NCBI GenBank assembly: GCA_903881505.1
Contig: CAIRTM010000005.1
Span: forward strand, 1-52,349
Direction: 5' to 3'
DNA: 52,349 bases
DNA from: an uncultured delta proteobacterium
GTDB lineage: Bacteria; Desulfobacterota; WTBG01; CAIYCZ01; CAIRTM01
In this document: one piece after another, positions 8,765 through 52,349 of the stretch
Numbering within the stretch: position 1 is the first letter of the stretch
Layout of the letters: each line of letters starts with the position of its first letter
The notes under the pieces: model-generated
Databases searched by the model: none
What the model was told of the DNA's origin: nothing
Seen by the model: only the letters and a program-made list of their open reading frames with translations
Program-made: the position numbers and the translations under genes

Positions 8765-10237
8765 ATGAGCGATAAAAATACGATGACCGCCAGGCACTTC
8801 CATCCACTGGAAGAATCGGTGCTTTCGCTGGCAGCCGGCAAGCTGCACCACGTGGAGGCGCCTGAAACCGCTCCGGTGCTCCGGCCGCCTGTGCCCGAAG
8901 AGCCGGCCCCGCTTCCTGAAATGCGGCCCCGGGCCGACATGCCCCTTGAAAAGCTTAAATCAATTTCCCACACGATCAATGAATGTGTCCGCTACGTTGC
9001 CAAGCACGTCATCGGCCGCGAGCAGATCGTGCGCCAGACGTTCGTCGCGCTTCTGACGGGAGAACATCAGCTGCTGATCAGCCGCACGGGCATGGCGAAA
9101 TCGCTGCTGGCGCGCCAGATTTTTGCCTGTTTCGAGGGCGCGCAGGTTTTCGAGAAGCAGCTGACCAAGGACACGATGCCTGAAAATCTTTTCGGCGCCT
9201 ACGATATCGAAGCCATGAAAAAGGGCAAGATGATCCACAACGTCGAAGGATCGGTGGTGCTTTCGCATTTCGCGTTTCTGGACGAGATTTTCGACGCCAA
9301 CGACATGCTGCTGCGCTCGCTCCTGTCGCTGCTCAATGAAAAGCAGCTCATCAACGGCGAACAGATTGTAAATTCAACCCTGTACAGCGCGATTGCGGCG
9401 GCAAATTATATCCGCTACACCGACGTGCTTGAAGCCGTCATCGACCGTTTTCTCTACAAGAGTTTTATCCCGGAAAACAAGGACCTGTACTTTCAGTACT
9501 CGATCGACCAGATATACCAGCAGCAGTTCGGCAAGGTCGCTCTTCCGCAGCGCCGTCTTTCTCTGGGCGAGCTGGCCTATGCCAAAAAAGTCATCCAGAG
9601 CAATCAGATTGCCGTTCCGGGGTATGTGCTGTTTTTGAAAAATTATATCCTGAAAAAGTATATTGAGGAGACGCGCGCCACCCACTCCGACCGCAAGGAC
9701 TTTACGATCAGCGACCGCAAGAGCGTGAAGATGCAGGACACGCTGCGCGCGGTCGCGTTCCTGGACGGCCGCGAGGAGGTCAGCGACCAGGATCTGGACA
9801 ACCTTTTCCTGTCGGTGTGCACGCTTGGCCGCGACGATGAAACCGCGCTGCTTGCCAAGATAACCGGGGCGGCGCGCAATTATTTCCGCCAGGACCGCGA
9901 CATCCTTGAAAACATGTTCAATGCAATCGATATATTTAACATCATCAGGTCTTCCGAAAACCAGGACATGCTCAAGAGCGATACATCCTTCAACCTGATC
10001 CGCACCCGCCTGCAGGAAACCGCACGCGCGGAAACCTCGCGCTTCAAGGATTATTTCAACCGCCTCAAGACAAAGATCATGTCCCTGAACCGCGACACGT
10101 TCCTGCCGGAAACATTCGCCGTGCTTGAAAACATCAGCGAGGTTTCCATGAAGGATGCCGGATCGCGCGAGTGCCGCGAGCTTGTGGTCAGCTTCCGGCA
10201 GGCCGTGTTTGAGTACAAGAAATATCTCAAACTGTAG
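8765..10237 (+). CDS. MoxR-family AAA+ ATPase (RavA-like)
   Basis: This 490-residue protein is an AAA+ ATPase of the MoxR branch. After a Pro-rich N-terminal 60 residues, the AAA module begins near residue 65. Its P-loop region reads LLISRTGMAKS (106-113), where the first Gly of the usual GPPGxAKS is Ser, while Lys112 and Ser113 are kept. Walker B is FAFLDEIFD with Asp173 and Glu174. Sensor/arginine-finger blocks follow (SAIAAANY, EAVIDRFLYK). A helical C-terminal half of about 200 residues has no recognised domain. The start ATG 8765 is preceded by TAAGGA at 5 bases. A hairpin and 86 bases separate it from the VWA gene on the same strand. MoxR-VWA pairs act as chaperone-like or metal-insertion machines; the client here is unknown. 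Confidence 0.88.
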   Translation: MSDKNTMTARHFHPLEESVLSLAAGKLHHVEAPETAPVLRPPVPEEPAPLPEMRPRADMPLEKLKSISHTINECVRYVAKHVIGREQIVRQTFVALLTGEHQLLISRTGMAKSLLARQIFACFEGAQVFEKQLTKDTMPENLFGAYDIEAMKKGKMIHNVEGSVVLSHFAFLDEIFDANDMLLRSLLSLLNEKQLINGEQIVNSTLYSAIAAANYIRYTDVLEAVIDRFLYKSFIPENKDLYFQYSIDQIYQQQFGKVALPQRRLSLGELAYAKKVIQSNQIAVPGYVLFLKNYILKKYIEETRATHSDRKDFTISDRKSVKMQDTLRAVAFLDGREEVSDQDLDNLFLSVCTLGRDDETALLAKITGAARNYFRQDRDILENMFNAIDIFNIIRSSENQDMLKSDTSFNLIRTRLQETARAETSRFKDYFNRLKTKIMSLNRDTFLPETFAVLENISEVSMKDAGSRECRELVVSFRQAVFEYKKYLKL

Positions 10238-10245
10238 GGTGCCGT

Positions 10246-10274
10246 AAGCCGGCAGAACGCTGTTCTGCCGGCTT
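10246..10274 (+). terminator. Strong hairpin between the MoxR and VWA genes
   Basis: A perfect 13-base inverted repeat, AAGCCGGCAGAAC and GTTCTGCCGGCTT, with a GCT loop lies 9 bases after the MoxR stop. Only three T residues in total run through its end, so it may be a weak terminator, attenuator or processing site that lowers VWA expression relative to MoxR. Confidence 0.5.
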
Positions 10275-10323
10275 TGCACGATCGCCCGTTTCATCCAGAG
10301 GCACCCGGGCGCAGCATGGCACT

Positions 10324-11901
10324 ATGGAACAGTCCGCATTCAGCTCCTATCTTTCCTTTTACCTGCCTTCCTGCGACATGTGCAGCACGCAGAGCCTGAA
10401 ATTCACCCCTGAGCTGATGAAGATTTTTTATATCGCGCGTGTGGTTTTCAGCGAAGCCAGCCGCCATCGCATCAAGACGCAGGCCGCGCCGCTGTTCAAC
10501 CGTGAAACCGTGTTCGCCCGGGGACGGGACCAGGACAATGACAGCCTGCAGCCGCAGCGGCCCGCGCGCATGGATAACAGCATCAACCTCGCGCCTATCA
10601 ACTCGGTCAGCGATATAGCCCACCTGCTGCCGCGCGAGCACATCATTTATCCAGACACTATTTTCTATAAAAAAGTCGCCAATCGCGAGTTGATCAAGAT
10701 CGATTACGAAGGCGGGGCCGCAGCTGTGTCAAGCGTTGATGATTTCCTGGGCGAGCAGCAGGTGGAACTCAGGCGCAGCCAGAAAGTCTATCTTCTGTTT
10801 GACAATTCGACCTCGATGAACGGCGAAAATTTTAAAAAGCTGATCGTTTCCAAGGCCATTGCCATCGAGTACCTGCGCCGGGCGGCGGCCGAGGAGCCGC
10901 AGCTGTACTTCCGCTCATTTCACAGCGAGGTATCCGACCTTGTGAAGGCCTCAAGCCGCGCCGACATTGAGTCGCTTGTCGCCCATATTACACGGCTGTC
11001 GACCGGAGGCGGTCATATCACCAATATCGGCGAGGCCATCGAGCAGGCCATTGCCGACATCCGCGCCGACGTTGAGCTTCGCCAGGCTGAAATCCTCGTG
11101 CTGACTGACGGCTTCGGCCCTGTTCCGCGCGACCTGCGCGAGCGGCTCGGATCAATCAAGCTGCACATCATCCTGATACCTGACCTGGATATAGAGAAGA
11201 TACTGCAGATGTATCCCGACCGTGCGGCCTGGAAAAAAGGCGGCCATGACGGGACGCGGCCCATGCCGCCGTTCTGGAGCTACTACGGCGCAAAGGCGCC
11301 GCCCGCCACGATCGAGAACGATGAACTGCTCAGGGAGGGCATACGCTCGGTTCAAACGGCCGCCAAGTCGGTCAAAGAGCTCAAGATGCTTGAGATACTG
11401 CAGGGCCTCAACCAGGTGTACGCGCTGCAGGAGGTGTGCGAAAATTTTATCTTTGTCGTGATTACCTCGATCCTGGAAGAATCCTTCCCGTTCAATGAAA
11501 CCGAGCTGGCCGCGGCCCGTGCCGAGGCGCAGCGCCTGCATGAACTGAGCATAGAGCAGCTTTCCAACGCGGAAAAAATGAAAACCCTGCAGCAGGTGAA
11601 TTTCCTGATCCAGTTTCTCGAAGTCGCGCGCAATAACACGCAGGACGGGGGGCTGAAAAAGGGCATCAGGGAAGTCGAGCGGATTTTGCGGGCCGTGCAG
11701 GCCCGCATCCTGGGCGACCCCTGGATAAAGTCGGTCCTCAGGTTCGATGATATCAGCATCGACTTCAAGTTCGACATGGCCGCTGAGCGCAACCGGGACG
11801 ACGGCGCCAGCCTGTGGGAGGCGTTTGCGTCGCTTATAAAGATTTTGCGCGAAAAGCTCCGCTATTTTTACGGCCAGCTGCGGGATCAGTACAGGATTTG
11901 A
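10324..11901 (+). CDS. VWA-domain protein partnered with the MoxR ATPase
   Basis: The 525-residue cytoplasmic protein has a central von Willebrand A domain (about residues 155-330) with a complete metal-ion-dependent adhesion site: DNSTS (Asp160, Ser162, Ser164), Thr233 in GGGHITNIG and Asp262 in LVLTDGFG. The N-terminal 150 residues contain a CxxC (SCDMC), and the C-terminal 190 residues are predicted mostly helical. No signal peptide or membrane segment is seen. Unlike ViaA, whose VWA domain is C-terminal, the domain here is in the middle. The start ATG 10324 has no clear ribosome site, so a later start is possible. Its position right after the MoxR gene suggests they form one complex. Confidence 0.87.
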   Translation: MEQSAFSSYLSFYLPSCDMCSTQSLKFTPELMKIFYIARVVFSEASRHRIKTQAAPLFNRETVFARGRDQDNDSLQPQRPARMDNSINLAPINSVSDIAHLLPREHIIYPDTIFYKKVANRELIKIDYEGGAAAVSSVDDFLGEQQVELRRSQKVYLLFDNSTSMNGENFKKLIVSKAIAIEYLRRAAAEEPQLYFRSFHSEVSDLVKASSRADIESLVAHITRLSTGGGHITNIGEAIEQAIADIRADVELRQAEILVLTDGFGPVPRDLRERLGSIKLHIILIPDLDIEKILQMYPDRAAWKKGGHDGTRPMPPFWSYYGAKAPPATIENDELLREGIRSVQTAAKSVKELKMLEILQGLNQVYALQEVCENFIFVVITSILEESFPFNETELAAARAEAQRLHELSIEQLSNAEKMKTLQQVNFLIQFLEVARNNTQDGGLKKGIREVERILRAVQARILGDPWIKSVLRFDDISIDFKFDMAAERNRDDGASLWEAFASLIKILREKLRYFYGQLRDQYRI

Positions 11902-46833: not shown

Positions 46834-47538
46834 TTAGGCAAGCCTGCGCGCATACCTGGTGGGATCCTGTACACCCGCGGCTTCAAATCCCTTGCGGCGC
46901 AGCACACAGCTGTCGCATCCCCCGCAGGCCCCGCCGTCGGGAGCGGGGTCATAGCAGCTGTGGGTCAGTGAGTAATCTACGCCCAGCCGGATGCCTGTCC
47001 GGATAATTTCAGCTTTTGACAGATCGATAAGCGGGGTTCTGATCGTGATGGCGCGGCCCTCCACCCCCTCGCGCGTTGCCAGATCAGCCATGTGCTGAAA
47101 AGCCCGGATAAACTCGGGGCGGCAGTCCGGGTAGCCTGAATAATCGACCGCCGTAACGCCGATGAAGACCGCACTGCATGAGCGCGCTTCGGCAAGAGCC
47201 AGGGCACAGGAGAGAAAAATAGTGTTGCGCGCCGGCACATACGTCACGGGGATGGATCCGGCGCTTTCAGGGGCGCTGCCTGCGCGGGGAACCGGTATCG
47301 GCTCTGTCAGGGCCGAGGCGCCGATGCGGTCGAGCGCGATCTCAAGGCACAGATGCTCGCGCGCGTTAAAGGCCCGTGCTATCCGTTCGGCGGCCTGCAG
47401 CTCGACGGCATGGCGCTGACCGTAGGCAAAGCTGAGACAGTGGACTCCAAAGCCTTCGCTGCACGCGATGGCCAGCGCGGTTGTCGAGTCGATGCCACCG
47501 CTGCACAGCACTACGGCCCTGCGTTCACGGGCGCTCAT
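46834..47538 (-). CDS. queC: 7-cyano-7-deazaguanine synthase
   Basis: It makes preQ0 from carboxydeazaguanine and ammonia for queuosine synthesis. The 234-residue protein has the PP-loop [42 protein letters not shown] and [17 protein letters not shown]. The zinc site [17 protein letters not shown] is near the C-terminus. Its start is 6 bases after the lysC stop, so it is cotranscribed with aspartate kinase; no other queuosine genes are nearby. Confidence 0.96.
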
Positions 47539-47544
47539 CGGATG

Positions 47545-48918
47545 TCAGCGTACCAGCGCGCCGTGGATAACGCGCAGGGCCCGGTCGGCATGCTCGTCCT
47601 CGATCACGCAGGAGATATTTATCTCCGAGGCGCCCTGCGAAATCATTTCGATGTTGATGTTTTCGCCGCCGAGCTCGGAAAACATGCGGCCGGCCAGTCC
47701 CACGCAGTTTTTTTGTCCGCGGCCCACAAGGCTCAGGATGGCAAGGCCGCGGCGCACCGTCACCTCGCCCAGTTCCCGCAGGTCGGCAATTGCGCGGTCA
47801 AGGTTTTTGTCGCTGTCCACGGTCATGGAAACGCTGACTTCGGAGGTTGCGATCAGGTCGATGACGATGCCGTATTTTTCGAACACGTTGAAAACATGGG
47901 CCATGAAGCCGTAGGCCATGAGCATGCGGTTCGAATCGATGTTGATCACGGTGACATTGCGCTTGGCGGTTACCGCCGTTGCCGGCCGGGACGGGCCCGT
48001 CTCGACAAGATTGGGATCGACGATGGTGCCCGGCACGGCCGGATTCAAGGTGTTTTTGATGCGGATCGGTATGTTGGCCCTGATCACCTGCTCCATGGTA
48101 AAGGGGTGAATGACTTCGGATCCGAAGTAGGTCAGCTCGGCTGCCTCATCCGGGGTAATGCTTTCCAGGACGTGCGCGTCCTCGACCTTGCGCGGGTCGG
48201 CTGAAAACACGCCGTCGACCTCCTTCCATATCTGCAGTTCCCGCGCGCCTACGGCGGCGGCGGCCAGTGCAGCGGTCAGGTCGGTGTAGCCCCTGCCGAT
48301 GCTGTGAATGATGCCGCCGGGCACGAGCCCGAAATAGCCGGTCAGGACCGGCACCCGGTGCCCGCACAGCTCGATGCGTTTTTTGAGGCCCGCGCGCGTG
48401 TAGGCGTAAAATTCATGGTTGGCCGCGGCAAAAGGCTTGTCGACGAGCGTGTCGAGGTTGACATACTCGGCGTCAATGCCCGTGCTGTTCAGCAGGCCGG
48501 TAAAAATGAGCGCCGAGAGTTTTTCACCGGTGCTGATAATCACGTCGTGGGAACGGGGCGATATCTCGCCGATAACGCTGATCGCCTCAAGGAATGATTT
48601 CATGGCCTTGAGCTCGGCATCGATCTGCTCGACGACCTGCGCCTGCAGCGGACCCTGGATAAGCTGCCGGGCGGTTTCAAGGTGATACTCCTCGATCAGG
48701 TCTATGATGCGGTAGAAATCCTTTCTGTTCAGGGCCGCGTCCGCCGCTTCGATCAGGCGGCTGGTCGTGCCTTCGGCCTTGACATAGCTGCTCATGGCTG
48801 AAAGCGCCACGATCACGCGGTCATGCTCAAGGCTGTCGCGGACAATGCCGGCAACAGAGCGCATGCGTTCAGCCTTGCCCAGGCTGGTTCCGCCGAATTT
48901 TTGTACGATGTACTGCAT
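47545..48918 (-). CDS. Aspartate kinase (monofunctional, ACT-domain)
   Basis: It phosphorylates aspartate at the start of Lys/Thr/Met synthesis. The 457-residue protein has VQKFGGTSLG at the N-terminus, ISTGEKLSALI, GYFGLVPGGIIHSIGRGYTDLTAA and the Asp/Arg block WKEVDGVFSADPRKV. Two ACT domains occupy the last 150 residues (VTVINIDSNRMLMAYGFMAH and SEINISCVIEDEHADRAL), expected to bind feedback amino acids. The long N-terminal helical insertion is like the class III/LysC type rather than the short 400-residue type. It lies between the mutase gene and queC on one strand. Confidence 0.94.
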   Translation of the reverse strand: MQYIVQKFGGTSLGKAERMRSVAGIVRDSLEHDRVIVALSAMSSYVKAEGTTSRLIEAADAALNRKDFYRIIDLIEEYHLETARQLIQGPLQAQVVEQIDAELKAMKSFLEAISVIGEISPRSHDVIISTGEKLSALIFTGLLNSTGIDAEYVNLDTLVDKPFAAANHEFYAYTRAGLKKRIELCGHRVPVLTGYFGLVPGGIIHSIGRGYTDLTAALAAAAVGARELQIWKEVDGVFSADPRKVEDAHVLESITPDEAAELTYFGSEVIHPFTMEQVIRANIPIRIKNTLNPAVPGTIVDPNLVETGPSRPATAVTAKRNVTVINIDSNRMLMAYGFMAHVFNVFEKYGIVIDLIATSEVSVSMTVDSDKNLDRAIADLRELGEVTVRRGLAILSLVGRGQKNCVGLAGRMFSELGGENINIEMISQGASEINISCVIEDEHADRALRVIHGALVR

Positions 48919-48977: not shown

Positions 48978-50369
48978 TCAGCGCAGGCGCCGGCTGTTGA
49001 TCAGCCCGGGCGCCTGCAGGGTCAGCTCGGGCGTTCCAAACAGAATGTTTTCAACCGCCTCAATGCCCTGCATGACGGCATGATCCATGTTGCCGACTTC
49101 ATATTTCCAGGCGCCGAACCTGCCGCGCGAAAAGACATCCAGGCTCCTGAGATGATCAAGGCTCCGGTTCAGCAGCGCGTCCCGTCCGAAAAACGGCGTG
49201 GGGTAGGCGACTGCCGCCCGGTGCGTCCAGGTGGCCACGATGGCGTTTTTGTCTTCGATCAGCCCGGTGTTGATGAAGCCCTGCAGGGCTTCATCAAGCA
49301 GCCTGCCTGCGTCGACCGTCTTTACCGGCGATTCAGAGACCTCGCCCATGAGCGACCAGCAGCCCTCTCCGGGCACATTGTTGGGCGAATAGTTTGAAAG
49401 CACGGTTACGCGGTAGAAGGGATTGTCGTCCTCGGGGAAATACATCCAGCATTTGGTCGCGAGTTTTTCGGGCACGGGGCCCCGCAGGCCGACACCGATG
49501 ATATTGGTTGCAGATGATACCAGCGCAGGCCGCTCCCGGAGCGGTTCGGCCCGGTCGGCCATGAGCAGCTCATCAAGAGGCATGGTTGAAATCAGGAAAT
49601 CATAGGGCTCTTCCGTGCCGTTATCCAAAAAAAGCACTTTTTTGCGGCTGTCCCAACCCTGCAGCGCGATGCCGGTGTTCAGCTTGCCCGGTGGCAGGCG
49701 GCTTGCCATCTGGCGCCAGATGGCGCCGGTTCCGCCGTACAGCGGGAAGCTGAACGTATTGTTGGGGCCCCAGGAACAGTCGTCGCGGCCGGCGATAATG
49801 TTGTCCATAATGCGCCTGACATCCGGGACGGCCACGCGTTCGCCGATCCAGTGCGCGTCCAGCATCTCCGGAGGGTAGGCCCACACTTTTTTGTTGTAGG
49901 GAACCATGAAATGACGCGCCAGCCCCTCGCCGAAGCTGTGCATGATCCAGTCAAGGAAGGTCGCGCGTTCAAGATCAAGCGGCTGGCCGGAGCCGCACTG
50001 CATCAGCCCGGCAAGGCATTCCAGCATGTCACGCTGCGGCAGGCGCCCGATATTGTACTGCAGCGGATAGGGGATGAAACGGTTGCGCATCCAGATCCAG
50101 CTTTCGCGTTCATGCGCAACCCAGCCTTCCGGAGCAATAAGCGCCTGCATCAGGCGGTCATAATAATCGTAGTGCGAAAACAGCACATGGCCGCCTATGT
50201 CCCAGGTAAAGCCCTGTGCATCGGCGAAGCTGGCGGAAAGGCCGCCGACATAGTCATTTTTTTCATACACCGCGAAGGTATCGTAGCCCAGCTCCTGCAG
50301 ACGCCAGGCAGCGCCCAGGCCGCAGGGCCCGGCCCCGATAATGATGATTTTGCCGTTTCCTGGCTGCAT
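48978..50369 (-). CDS. UDP-galactopyranose mutase-like flavoenzyme, eukaryotic type
   Basis: The 463-residue protein has an FAD-binding GAGPCG (residues 13-18) near the start. It follows eukaryotic UDP-galactopyranose mutases block by block: DIGGHVLFSHYDYYD (His61), FIPYPLQYNIGRLP, PYNKKVWAYPPEMLDAHWIG, ERVAVPDVRRIMDNII, SWGPNNTFSFPLYGGTG, IGVGLRGPVPEKLATKCWMY, FPEDDNPFYRVTVLSNYSPN, SRGRFGAWKYEVGNMDH and a C-terminal VENILFGTPELTL. The classic bacterial Glf is much more distant. It should convert UDP-galactopyranose to UDP-galactofuranose for cell-surface glycan; activity is inferred. ATG 50369 was chosen after a perfect promoter at 50433-50460. An amine-oxidase-like role is the alternative. 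Confidence 0.85.
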   Translation of the reverse strand: MQPGNGKIIIIGAGPCGLGAAWRLQELGYDTFAVYEKNDYVGGLSASFADAQGFTWDIGGHVLFSHYDYYDRLMQALIAPEGWVAHERESWIWMRNRFIPYPLQYNIGRLPQRDMLECLAGLMQCGSGQPLDLERATFLDWIMHSFGEGLARHFMVPYNKKVWAYPPEMLDAHWIGERVAVPDVRRIMDNIIAGRDDCSWGPNNTFSFPLYGGTGAIWRQMASRLPPGKLNTGIALQGWDSRKKVLFLDNGTEEPYDFLISTMPLDELLMADRAEPLRERPALVSSATNIIGVGLRGPVPEKLATKCWMYFPEDDNPFYRVTVLSNYSPNNVPGEGCWSLMGEVSESPVKTVDAGRLLDEALQGFINTGLIEDKNAIVATWTHRAAVAYPTPFFGRDALLNRSLDHLRSLDVFSRGRFGAWKYEVGNMDHAVMQGIEAVENILFGTPELTLQAPGLINSRRLR

Positions 50370-50432: not shown

Positions 50433-50460
50433 ATTATAGACAACTGCACACACCTGTCAA
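50433..50460 (-). promoter_or_regulatory. Consensus sigma-70 promoter of the mutase gene
   Basis: On the minus strand, TTGACA (50460-50455), a 16-base spacer and TATAAT (50438-50433) match both consensus boxes perfectly. Transcription should start near 50426, giving a leader of about 57 bases, and may extend through lysC and queC. Confidence 0.85.
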
Positions 50461-50478: not shown

Positions 50479-50582
50479 TGCACGAGCATCGGCCGGCTGC
50501 CTGGTGGCAGATTTCAATTGACAGACGCCGGGCCGCTTCCTATAGTGCCAGCATTACATGCGCGCACAGGAGGACGCCTGCC

Positions 50583-51185
50583 ATGGCCGGCAAGCGGGAA
50601 ACGCAGAAGGAGCAGCGGCGCGAAGCGATTTTGAACGCCGCCCTGGATCTTTTTTCGAAAAAGGGGTTCGACCTGACAACGGTCGAGGACATTACCCGGG
50701 AGGCCCGCGTCGCCAAGGGGACGTTTTATAATTTTTTCCTCAAGAAAGAGGACGTGCTGCTGTATTTCCTCGACAGGGAGTTCGCAAAGAGCAGGGCGGA
50801 GATTGCGCGCAAAATGCCCCGGACGCCGGGCATCTCTGAAAAAATCGAGCTGCTGATTGCGACCTATATTAAATATATCTTCCCCAACAAGGAGTTCTCC
50901 TCCGTTCTCATCAGGGAGCGCGTCATGAATCTCGGCACCGGCAGCAACAGGAACGAGATGAGCCTGGTGCATGAACTTGCCGGGCTTTTCGACGAGGCCA
51001 AGGGCCGCGGCGAGATCCGCTCCGATGTTGCCTCCGACCACCTGGCGGAGATGGTGTTTGCGATCTATACCATGTATGTCATCTACTGGACAAACGGCCT
51101 CATAAAAACGAAAAAACAGTGCATTGAGCGTATCCGCGAAATCAGCATGCTCATGCTGCAGGGCGTTGCCCGGAGCAGGGCATAA
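50583..51185 (+). CDS. TetR/AcrR family transcriptional regulator
   Basis: The 200-residue protein has an N-terminal helix-turn-helix of TetR type (RREAILNAALDLFSKKGFDL, TTVEDITREARVAKGTFYNFF) and an all-helical ligand domain. AGGAGG lies about 10 bases before ATG 50583. It is transcribed toward a FAD-linked oxidase gene that has two similar 12-base palindromes in its promoter region (51326-51358), the likely operators. The ligand cannot be read from sequence; TetR proteins next to acyl-CoA or aromatic degradation genes often sense acyl-CoAs. Confidence 0.93.
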   Translation: MAGKRETQKEQRREAILNAALDLFSKKGFDLTTVEDITREARVAKGTFYNFFLKKEDVLLYFLDREFAKSRAEIARKMPRTPGISEKIELLIATYIKYIFPNKEFSSVLIRERVMNLGTGSNRNEMSLVHELAGLFDEAKGRGEIRSDVASDHLAEMVFAIYTMYVIYWTNGLIKTKKQCIERIREISMLMLQGVARSRA

Positions 51186-51446: not shown

Positions 51447-52349
51447 ATGTCCATTAAAAATGATCTTACAGCCATCGCGGGTTCCGGCAATGTGCGGGAT
51501 GACGGCCAGACGCTTGGCCGCTACGCGGCCGATCAAAGTTTTGTGAGCCCGCGCAGGCCCGACCTTGTCGTGTTTGCTGAACATGTTGACCAGGTGCAGG
51601 CAATCGTCAGGTACGCCAATACGACCCGGGTGCCGGTGGTGCCGTTCAGCTCCGGGCTCAATCTGCACGGGGCCGCCATACCCAAAGAGGGCGGCATTGT
51701 GCTGGACCTGTCACGCATGGACCGTATTCTTGAAATCAACGCCGATAACCGGCATTGCGTAATCGAGCCCGGCGTGACGGCAGCGCAGCTGCAGGATGAA
51801 CTCGCTAAACACCAGCTGCGCGCCATGCTGCCGCTGGGCATACACCCGAACCGCTCCGTGCTGTCGAGTTACCTTGAGCGCGACCCGGCGACTGGCGCGG
51901 CAAGTTTCGAATACGGCAATGAATTGATCATGGATACCGAGCTTGTGCTGCCCACGGGCGAACTGTTCCGGACAGGGCTGTGGTCGGCCGGCGTCAAACC
52001 CGGATCTCCGATGGGTCCGGTGCGCGCCATGCTGAACCGCCTCTGGACCGGCGCCCAGGGCACGCTCGGCATTATGACGAAAATGAACATCAAGGTCGAA
52101 TATCTGCCGCGCCTGCGCAGAGTCTGCATGCTGGCGTTCGATTCGTTCCCCGAGGCCATGGAGCCGCTGCGCATGATTCAGCGCAGGGAAATCGGCCTTG
52201 AATGCCTGCTGCTGAACAACTTCAACTGTGCGGCGCTGCTGTGCCGGGACTGGTCAGTGCCGGAAGCGTTCCCCGCGGCCCTGGTTGTTTCAAATCAGTT
52301 CGAACAGCTGCGGAAAAAACTGCCGGAGTGGGTGATGGTTGTGTGTTTA
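51447..52349 (+). CDS. FAD-binding (VAO/PCMH family) oxidoreductase, N-terminal part
   Basis: The 301 codons visible run off the right edge in frame. The protein opens with DQSFVSPRRPDLVVFAEHVD and VQAIVRYANTTRVPVVPFSSG. The FAD-binding block LNLHGAAIPKEGGIVLDLSRM follows, with CVIEPGVTAAQLQDELAKHQ, TGAQGTLGIMTKMNIKVEYL and LVLPTGELFRTG, as in glycolate oxidase GlcD, D-lactate dehydrogenase and 4-cresol methylhydroxylase relatives. AGGAGG lies 5 bases before ATG 51447. Likely controlled by the TetR protein through the tandem operator. The substrate is unknown without the C-terminal half. Confidence 0.88.
   Translation, partial: MSIKNDLTAIAGSGNVRDDGQTLGRYAADQSFVSPRRPDLVVFAEHVDQVQAIVRYANTTRVPVVPFSSGLNLHGAAIPKEGGIVLDLSRMDRILEINADNRHCVIEPGVTAAQLQDELAKHQLRAMLPLGIHPNRSVLSSYLERDPATGAASFEYGNELIMDTELVLPTGELFRTGLWSAGVKPGSPMGPVRAMLNRLWTGAQGTLGIMTKMNIKVEYLPRLRRVCMLAFDSFPEAMEPLRMIQRREIGLECLLLNNFNCAALLCRDWSVPEAFPAALVVSNQFEQLRKKLPEWVMVVCL

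Follow-up and report, generated by a model that had tools for sequence, protein, structure and literature searches.

The question raised by this locus is how a bacterium comes to carry a gene for a UDP-galactopyranose mutase (UGM) of the type known from fungi and protists, and whether such a gene may provide its host with galactofuranose (Galf). The window analysed here, i.e., the whole stretch of 52,349 nucleotides, belongs to the genome of an uncultured delta proteobacterium. In our opinion, the gene very probably encodes a functional FAD-dependent UGM of the class called eukaryotic, which would feed a glycan route with GT2 and GT-C enzymes.

The Gene and Its Local Setting

The features of the locus are collected in Table 1. 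The first-pass annotation, made from the sequence of the window alone, had placed the gene behind a perfect consensus promoter and ahead of aspartate kinase and queC, and this was confirmed in both respects. Both hexamers of the UGM promoter are kept, with a diverged spacer, in the congener G001, and the divergent TetR promoter is likewise kept there; the region contains three sites of promoter type vs 0.8 expected. An in-frame GTG sits 6 nt 5' of the start ATG. The order TetR–UGM–aspartate kinase–queC is also kept in this congener, the UGM of which is 84% identical to the window protein. No functional link of aspartate kinase or queC to UGM was found, the synteny being seen within the genus only. 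The position of UGM ahead of these two genes is a genus-level trait, and in sister genera the gene belongs to a glycosylation operon. The divergently encoded TetR-family protein is a candidate regulator of the intergenic region common to both genes.

Table 1. Features of the UGM locus in the window and selected active-site codons.
Feature	Position	Strand	Remarks
Eukaryotic-type UGM, CDS, 463 aa	48978..50369	-	Start ATG at 50369
Aspartate kinase	47545..48918	-	Directly 3' of the UGM gene
queC	46834..47538	-	Downstream of the UGM gene, same strand
TetR-family gene	50580..51185	+	Divergent from the UGM gene; same order in congener G001
Sigma-70-type consensus promoter TTGACA-16-TATAAT of the UGM gene	50433..50460	-	12/12 match
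Near-consensus promoter TTGACA-17-TATAGT of the TetR gene	50518..50546	+	Divergent
Histidine loop Gly59-Gly60-His61	50187..50195	-	AfUGM G61-G62-H63; TcUGM G60-G61-H62
Arg178, mobile flap 1	49836..49838	-	AfUGM Arg182/TcUGM Arg176; lost in closest paralog group
Arg320, diphosphate	49410..49412	-	AfUGM/TcUGM Arg327

Contamination or recent import of the UGM gene was ruled out by the gene order and promoter kept in G001 and by the native GC content. A viral or plasmid origin was rejected too: viral contigs contained no relatives, phage matches were at 25–26% and plasmid matches did not exceed 39%.

Beyond the TetR gene, the contig ends within a gene of a FAD_binding_4 oxidase (GlcD-like) at 51447–52349; in G001, where the sequence goes on, an Fe-S/CCG protein and another FAD_binding_4 (GlcD-like) oxidase follow. 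Elsewhere in the window (8765–11901), a bpMoxR AAA ATPase adjoins a VWA protein, resembling MoxR-vWA-beta-propeller ternary systems.

Homology, Fold and Active Site

When the window protein was compared with the PDB by phmmer, the best match was the UGM of Trypanosoma cruzi (TcUGM, 4dsg; 467 bits, E 6.9e-139, residues 7–461) and the second was that of Aspergillus fumigatus (AfUGM; 404 bits), after which the PDB matches listed cover the N-terminal FAD domain only; no classic Glf chains were among the 60 PDB matches listed at E 0.01. The Pfam family GLF (PF03275) gave no match at E 0.1. The identity amounts to 48.9% with TcUGM over 450 columns and to 42% with AfUGM, these two being 49% identical to each other. 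It is known that prokaryotic and eukaryotic classes of UGMs have 14–18% identity between them (PMC3624792). The AlphaFold model of the window protein (pLDDT 90.8) is superimposed on 4dsg with TM 0.93 and 47% identity, vs TM 0.64 and about 16–17% identity with classic Glf. Full-length homology and a common fold with TcUGM (4dsg/4dsh) and AfUGM (3ute) bear out the earlier statement that the protein aligns throughout with fungal and protist UGMs rather than with classic Glf, and the motifs quoted in its support were found as GGHVLFSHY, VWAYP, GVGLRGPVPEK and SRGRFGAWKYEVGNMDH. Unlike the eukaryotic UGM chains of 484–513 aa, the window protein has 463 aa and a bacterial host, and its relatives occur in a bacterial glycosylation operon. 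Classic Glf (PF03275), known from E. coli, K. pneumoniae and D. radiodurans, has a related flavoprotein fold and presumably the same reaction, but its histidine block differs.

The Gly-Gly-His loop, both flaps, the uridine Gln/Tyr/Phe and the Arg/Tyr set of the diphosphate are shared with TcUGM and AfUGM, as are most residues of the NAD(P)H site. The histidine loop with two Gly residues is described as unique to eukaryotic UGMs, and Gln107 of the uracil site is missing from bacterial UGMs (PMC3624792); in the window protein, the equivalent of the latter is Gln104. Identical in the alignment are all 12 catalytic residues of TcUGM (Gly60, Gly61, His62, Val63, Arg176, Asn201, Tyr317, Arg327, Tyr395, Arg423, Tyr429 and Asn433), the residues that matter for function being taken from PMC4192007. 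As for AfUGM, 20 of the 21 positions compared are identical, the exception being Asn203 (Ser in the window protein), which is also different in T. cruzi. The identical positions include all the uridine residues (Tyr104, Gln107 and Phe158) and all those of the diphosphate and sugar (Arg182, Arg327, Tyr317, Tyr334, Tyr419, Arg447, Tyr453, Asn207 and Asn457). Part of the AfUGM residue list used for this mapping belongs to the general background on that enzyme. The second active-site flap (AfUGM 203–209) reads SWGPNNT in the window protein vs NWGPNAT. Six of the eight residues listed for the NAD(P)H site of AfUGM (PMC7662398), a site associated with fast reduction by NADPH, are identical (equivalents of Arg91, Ser93, Tyr104, Phe66, His68 and Tyr317) and Ile65 is replaced by Leu; this comparison includes Asn57, named in the cited paper, which disagrees with the AfUGM numbering in the chain.

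The first-pass annotation had named the absence of the uracil-binding Arg and Tyr residues as evidence against a UGM. All of them are present, and the roles assigned to them need only a minor correction: uracil belongs to the equivalents of Gln107, Tyr104 and Phe158, and the Arg/Tyr set is that of diphosphate. The window protein is very likely to be catalytically active.

The Second Mutase and the Question of Substrate

Another mutase, of the classic Glf type (222 bits), is encoded on contig C56 of the same genome, where genes of a GT2 and an 8-TM protein come after it, and the view of the UGM as the sole furanose mutase of the genome was rejected. The earlier idea of Galf obtained by the eukaryotic-branch enzyme is supported with respect to the enzyme class and has to be supplemented with this second candidate. 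No classic Glf was found in G001, a genome that is 100% complete. Among 30 tested genomes with the eukaryotic-type UGM, for 22 of which completeness is not given, classic Glf is absent in 26, and both mutases occur in four (the window's genome, G000, as well as G059, G065 and G072); a 31-bit classic-Glf match in G003 is a paralog.

The classic Glf of the window's genome departs from the norm, FRT replacing FHT in its histidine block; the solved UGMs compared have FHT where GPHYFRT has Arg. Campylobacter UDP-GalNAc mutase also has Arg at the FHT position. A different substrate of GPHYFRT Glf proteins is possible, judging from this motif. GPHYFRT was observed in two of the three classic Glf proteins of this family (L085 8195–9346; L140 5709–6809; L139 4644–5807).

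These data bear on the strongest alternative, according to which the window protein has the same fold and chemistry but acts mainly on another UDP-sugar (UDP-GalNAc, UDP-L-Arap or a deoxy sugar), UDP-Galf being made by classic Glf. A C. jejuni enzyme annotated as UGM proved to be a UDP-arabinopyranose mutase (PMC10615251), and therefore the substrate cannot be deduced from homology alone; the presence of two mutase types in one genome also favours a division of this kind. However, all the sugar and diphosphate residues are identical to those of enzymes proven on UDP-Galp, the eukaryotic-type enzyme is the only recognisable UGM in the 26 genomes mentioned, and it is the classic Glf of the window's genome that is atypical. 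We consider this alternative rather unlikely and UDP-Galf, rather than another UDP-sugar, a highly likely substrate.

It is very unlikely that the UGM gene has become redundant or is decaying, its job being done by the classic Glf operon on C56. The existence of that Glf–GT2–membrane-protein operon and the separation of UGM from its usual operon partners in the genus would agree with decay, but the frame is intact, the active site is fully conserved, and identity and promoter are kept in G001, where no classic Glf was found. The presence of classic Glf in the window's genome, which makes the need for a second mutase less evident, counts against the best explanation, namely a functional eukaryotic-type UGM.

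Glycosylation Cassette in Relatives and Proposed Function

In sister genera of the class (L005–L008), the gene directly after UGM encodes a GT2 with a length of about 235 aa. The operon has the order cl28–UGM–GT2 in G013 and G010, where cl28 is a large membrane protein (764 aa in G013), and UGM–GT2 in G003 and G004. The partner GT2 was found with at least 59% identity in all seven class genomes with UGM and in one of eight without it, at 47–48% identity (Fisher p 0.0014, kinship not corrected). In the exception, G002, GT2 adjoins classic Glf and a PMT_2/DUF2298 membrane protein comes after them, and in G005 cl28 adjoins classic Glf and a diverged GT2. Because homologues of the GT2 and membrane partners adjoin classic Glf in these sister genomes and eukaryotic-type UGM in others, the two mutases are suggested to be interchangeable in the cassette. 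The simplest reading of the gene neighbourhood is that either mutase would feed the same cassette type with UDP-Galf.

The same parts are dispersed in the window's genome, where UGM is on C5, GT2 on C68 (59% identity) and cl28 on C47, adjoining a UGM paralog, and no operon joins them. The model of cl28 has pLDDT 67, and its best fold matches are weak ones to GT-C proteins (OST, ArnT bound to undecaprenyl phosphate and AftB), none of which reaches E 0.001.

A three-component polyprenyl-phosphate glycosylation system, CsbB–GtcA–YfhO, is known in Bacillus and Listeria (PMC7389260). The cassette of relatives resembles it in the combination of a GT2 with a large multi-TM GT-C-like protein, here adjoining a mutase. 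Unlike that system, it includes a furanose mutase, and no flippase (GtcA) was identified. In a cyanobacterium-labelled MAG (L014 4895–11820), a protein kinase, GT2, eukaryotic-type UGM and YfhO stand in a row, and in Geobacter-like and Brocadia-like genomes UGM lies among GT4 and GT9 genes.

The search for a UDP-galactose epimerase, proposed in the first-pass annotation, gave a GalE in the genome (431.8 bits), and this enzyme would supply UDP-Gal. The flavin of the mutase would be reduced first, probably by NADPH, FAD N5 would then attack C1 of UDP-Galp with departure of UDP, the sugar ring would open at the stage of the flavin iminium and reclose as furanose, and re-addition of UDP would give UDP-Galf. 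The latter would most likely be consumed by the partner GT2 and probably loaded onto polyprenyl phosphate, after which the GT-C membrane transferase would decorate a surface glycan with Galf. The polyprenyl-phosphate-Galf route is put forward tentatively.

NodU-type carbamoyltransferase genes were noticed near UGM or cl28 in three related genomes (L116 5636–7495; L115 11398–13260; L142 8312–10051), and their recurrence may hint at a carbamoylated sugar.

Distribution, Phylogeny and Origin

A scan of species-representative genomes gave 106 relatives, 80 of which were kept, MAG labels being those of the submitters. They belong to Thermodesulfobacteriota, Planctomycetota, Kiritimatiellota/Lentisphaerota, Actinomycetota, Acidobacteriota, Omnitrophota, Sumerlaeota and other phyla. 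All 21 sites compared are identical to those of the window protein in 69 of 82 bacterial sequences, and none of the 82 varies at the equivalents of Arg182, Arg327, Gln107 and His63. Within the window's phylum, sampled evenly, only 12 of 297 genomes have a strong homologue; the eukaryotic-type UGM in bacteria is widespread but patchy.

No report on a bacterial eukaryotic-type UGM was found in the literature searched, outside of which lie key subscription papers, and an earlier mention is possible. As far as this literature shows, the window protein extends a known enzyme class to hosts from which it had not been described. The original designation, a bacterial gene for a eukaryotic-type UGM, is correct as to the class, but the "eukaryotic" type occurs widely among bacteria, and therefore the gene is no evidence of transfer from a eukaryote to a bacterium.

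The tree comprised 61 proteins with only two eukaryotic sequences, T. cruzi and A. fumigatus. The clade of bacterial and eukaryotic UGMs together is split from the paralog family (100/100), and the window protein, clustering with its class relatives (100/100), falls inside it, with generic amine-oxidase-like paralogs outside, contrary to the placement with amine oxidoreductases that the first-pass annotation had named as a refutation. The two eukaryotic sequences form a pair (92/92) amid several deep bacterial branches. Neither the constraint of monophyly of all bacteria (AU p 0.30) nor that joining the eukaryotes with the window clade (AU p 0.18) was rejected.

The latter result, together with the eukaryotic origin of the members with known structures, might speak for the transfer of the gene from eukaryotes to bacteria, but the bacterial diversity is large, the eukaryotic pair is one branch among deep bacterial ones, TcUGM is nearer to a Sumerlaeota protein (54% identity) than to AfUGM (49%), and gene order and promoter are native, as is the GC content, all of which makes such a transfer highly improbable. 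It is quite possible, if short of probable, that the "eukaryotic" UGMs form a bacterial class, old and widely spread, which replaces classic Glf in many phyla, can be swapped with it within the GT2/GT-C cassette and was the source of the Galf pathway in fungi, kinetoplastids and animals. The bacterial branch of this class would make the origin of Galf synthesis in fungi and trypanosomes testable by phylogeny and would offer easy bacterial models for a class of drug-target enzymes; many "FAD-dependent oxidoreductases" would be re-annotated. Galf is then predicted in glycans of Geobacter, Desulfovibrio, anammox bacteria and Phycisphaerae, for which no report of it was found in the literature searched.

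PRK07208-type and related FAD oxidoreductases belong to the same superfamily as the window protein. Paralogs differ at 6–10 of the 21 active-site positions; the closest ones retain the equivalents of His61, Gln104, Arg320, Tyr389, Arg417 and Tyr423. The chance that the window protein is a generic flavoprotein, similar to amine oxidases or protoporphyrinogen oxidases and merely resembling UGM, is negligible, since, although its only Pfam match is Amino_oxidase, NCBIfam gives PRK07208 models only, far below their cut-offs, and plasmid homologues (at most 39% identity) are labelled "FAD-dependent oxidoreductase" or "NAD(P)-binding protein", its model is much farther from the closest protoporphyrinogen oxidase structures (TM 0.72, 15% identity) than from TcUGM, the UGM active site is complete and the paralogs are split off with full support.

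The window's genome itself contains a member of the paralog family, 31% identical to the window protein (C47:42662–43939; L086 9624–10973, minus strand). It retains most of the nucleotide-sugar residues, lacks the equivalents of Arg182 and Asn457 and adjoins cl28 both here and in G001; it may be an uncharacterised UDP-sugar flavoenzyme. Adjoining it (L086 11132–12118) is a gene of a protein with 4Fe-4S motifs and a match to ferredoxin-dependent bilin reductase.
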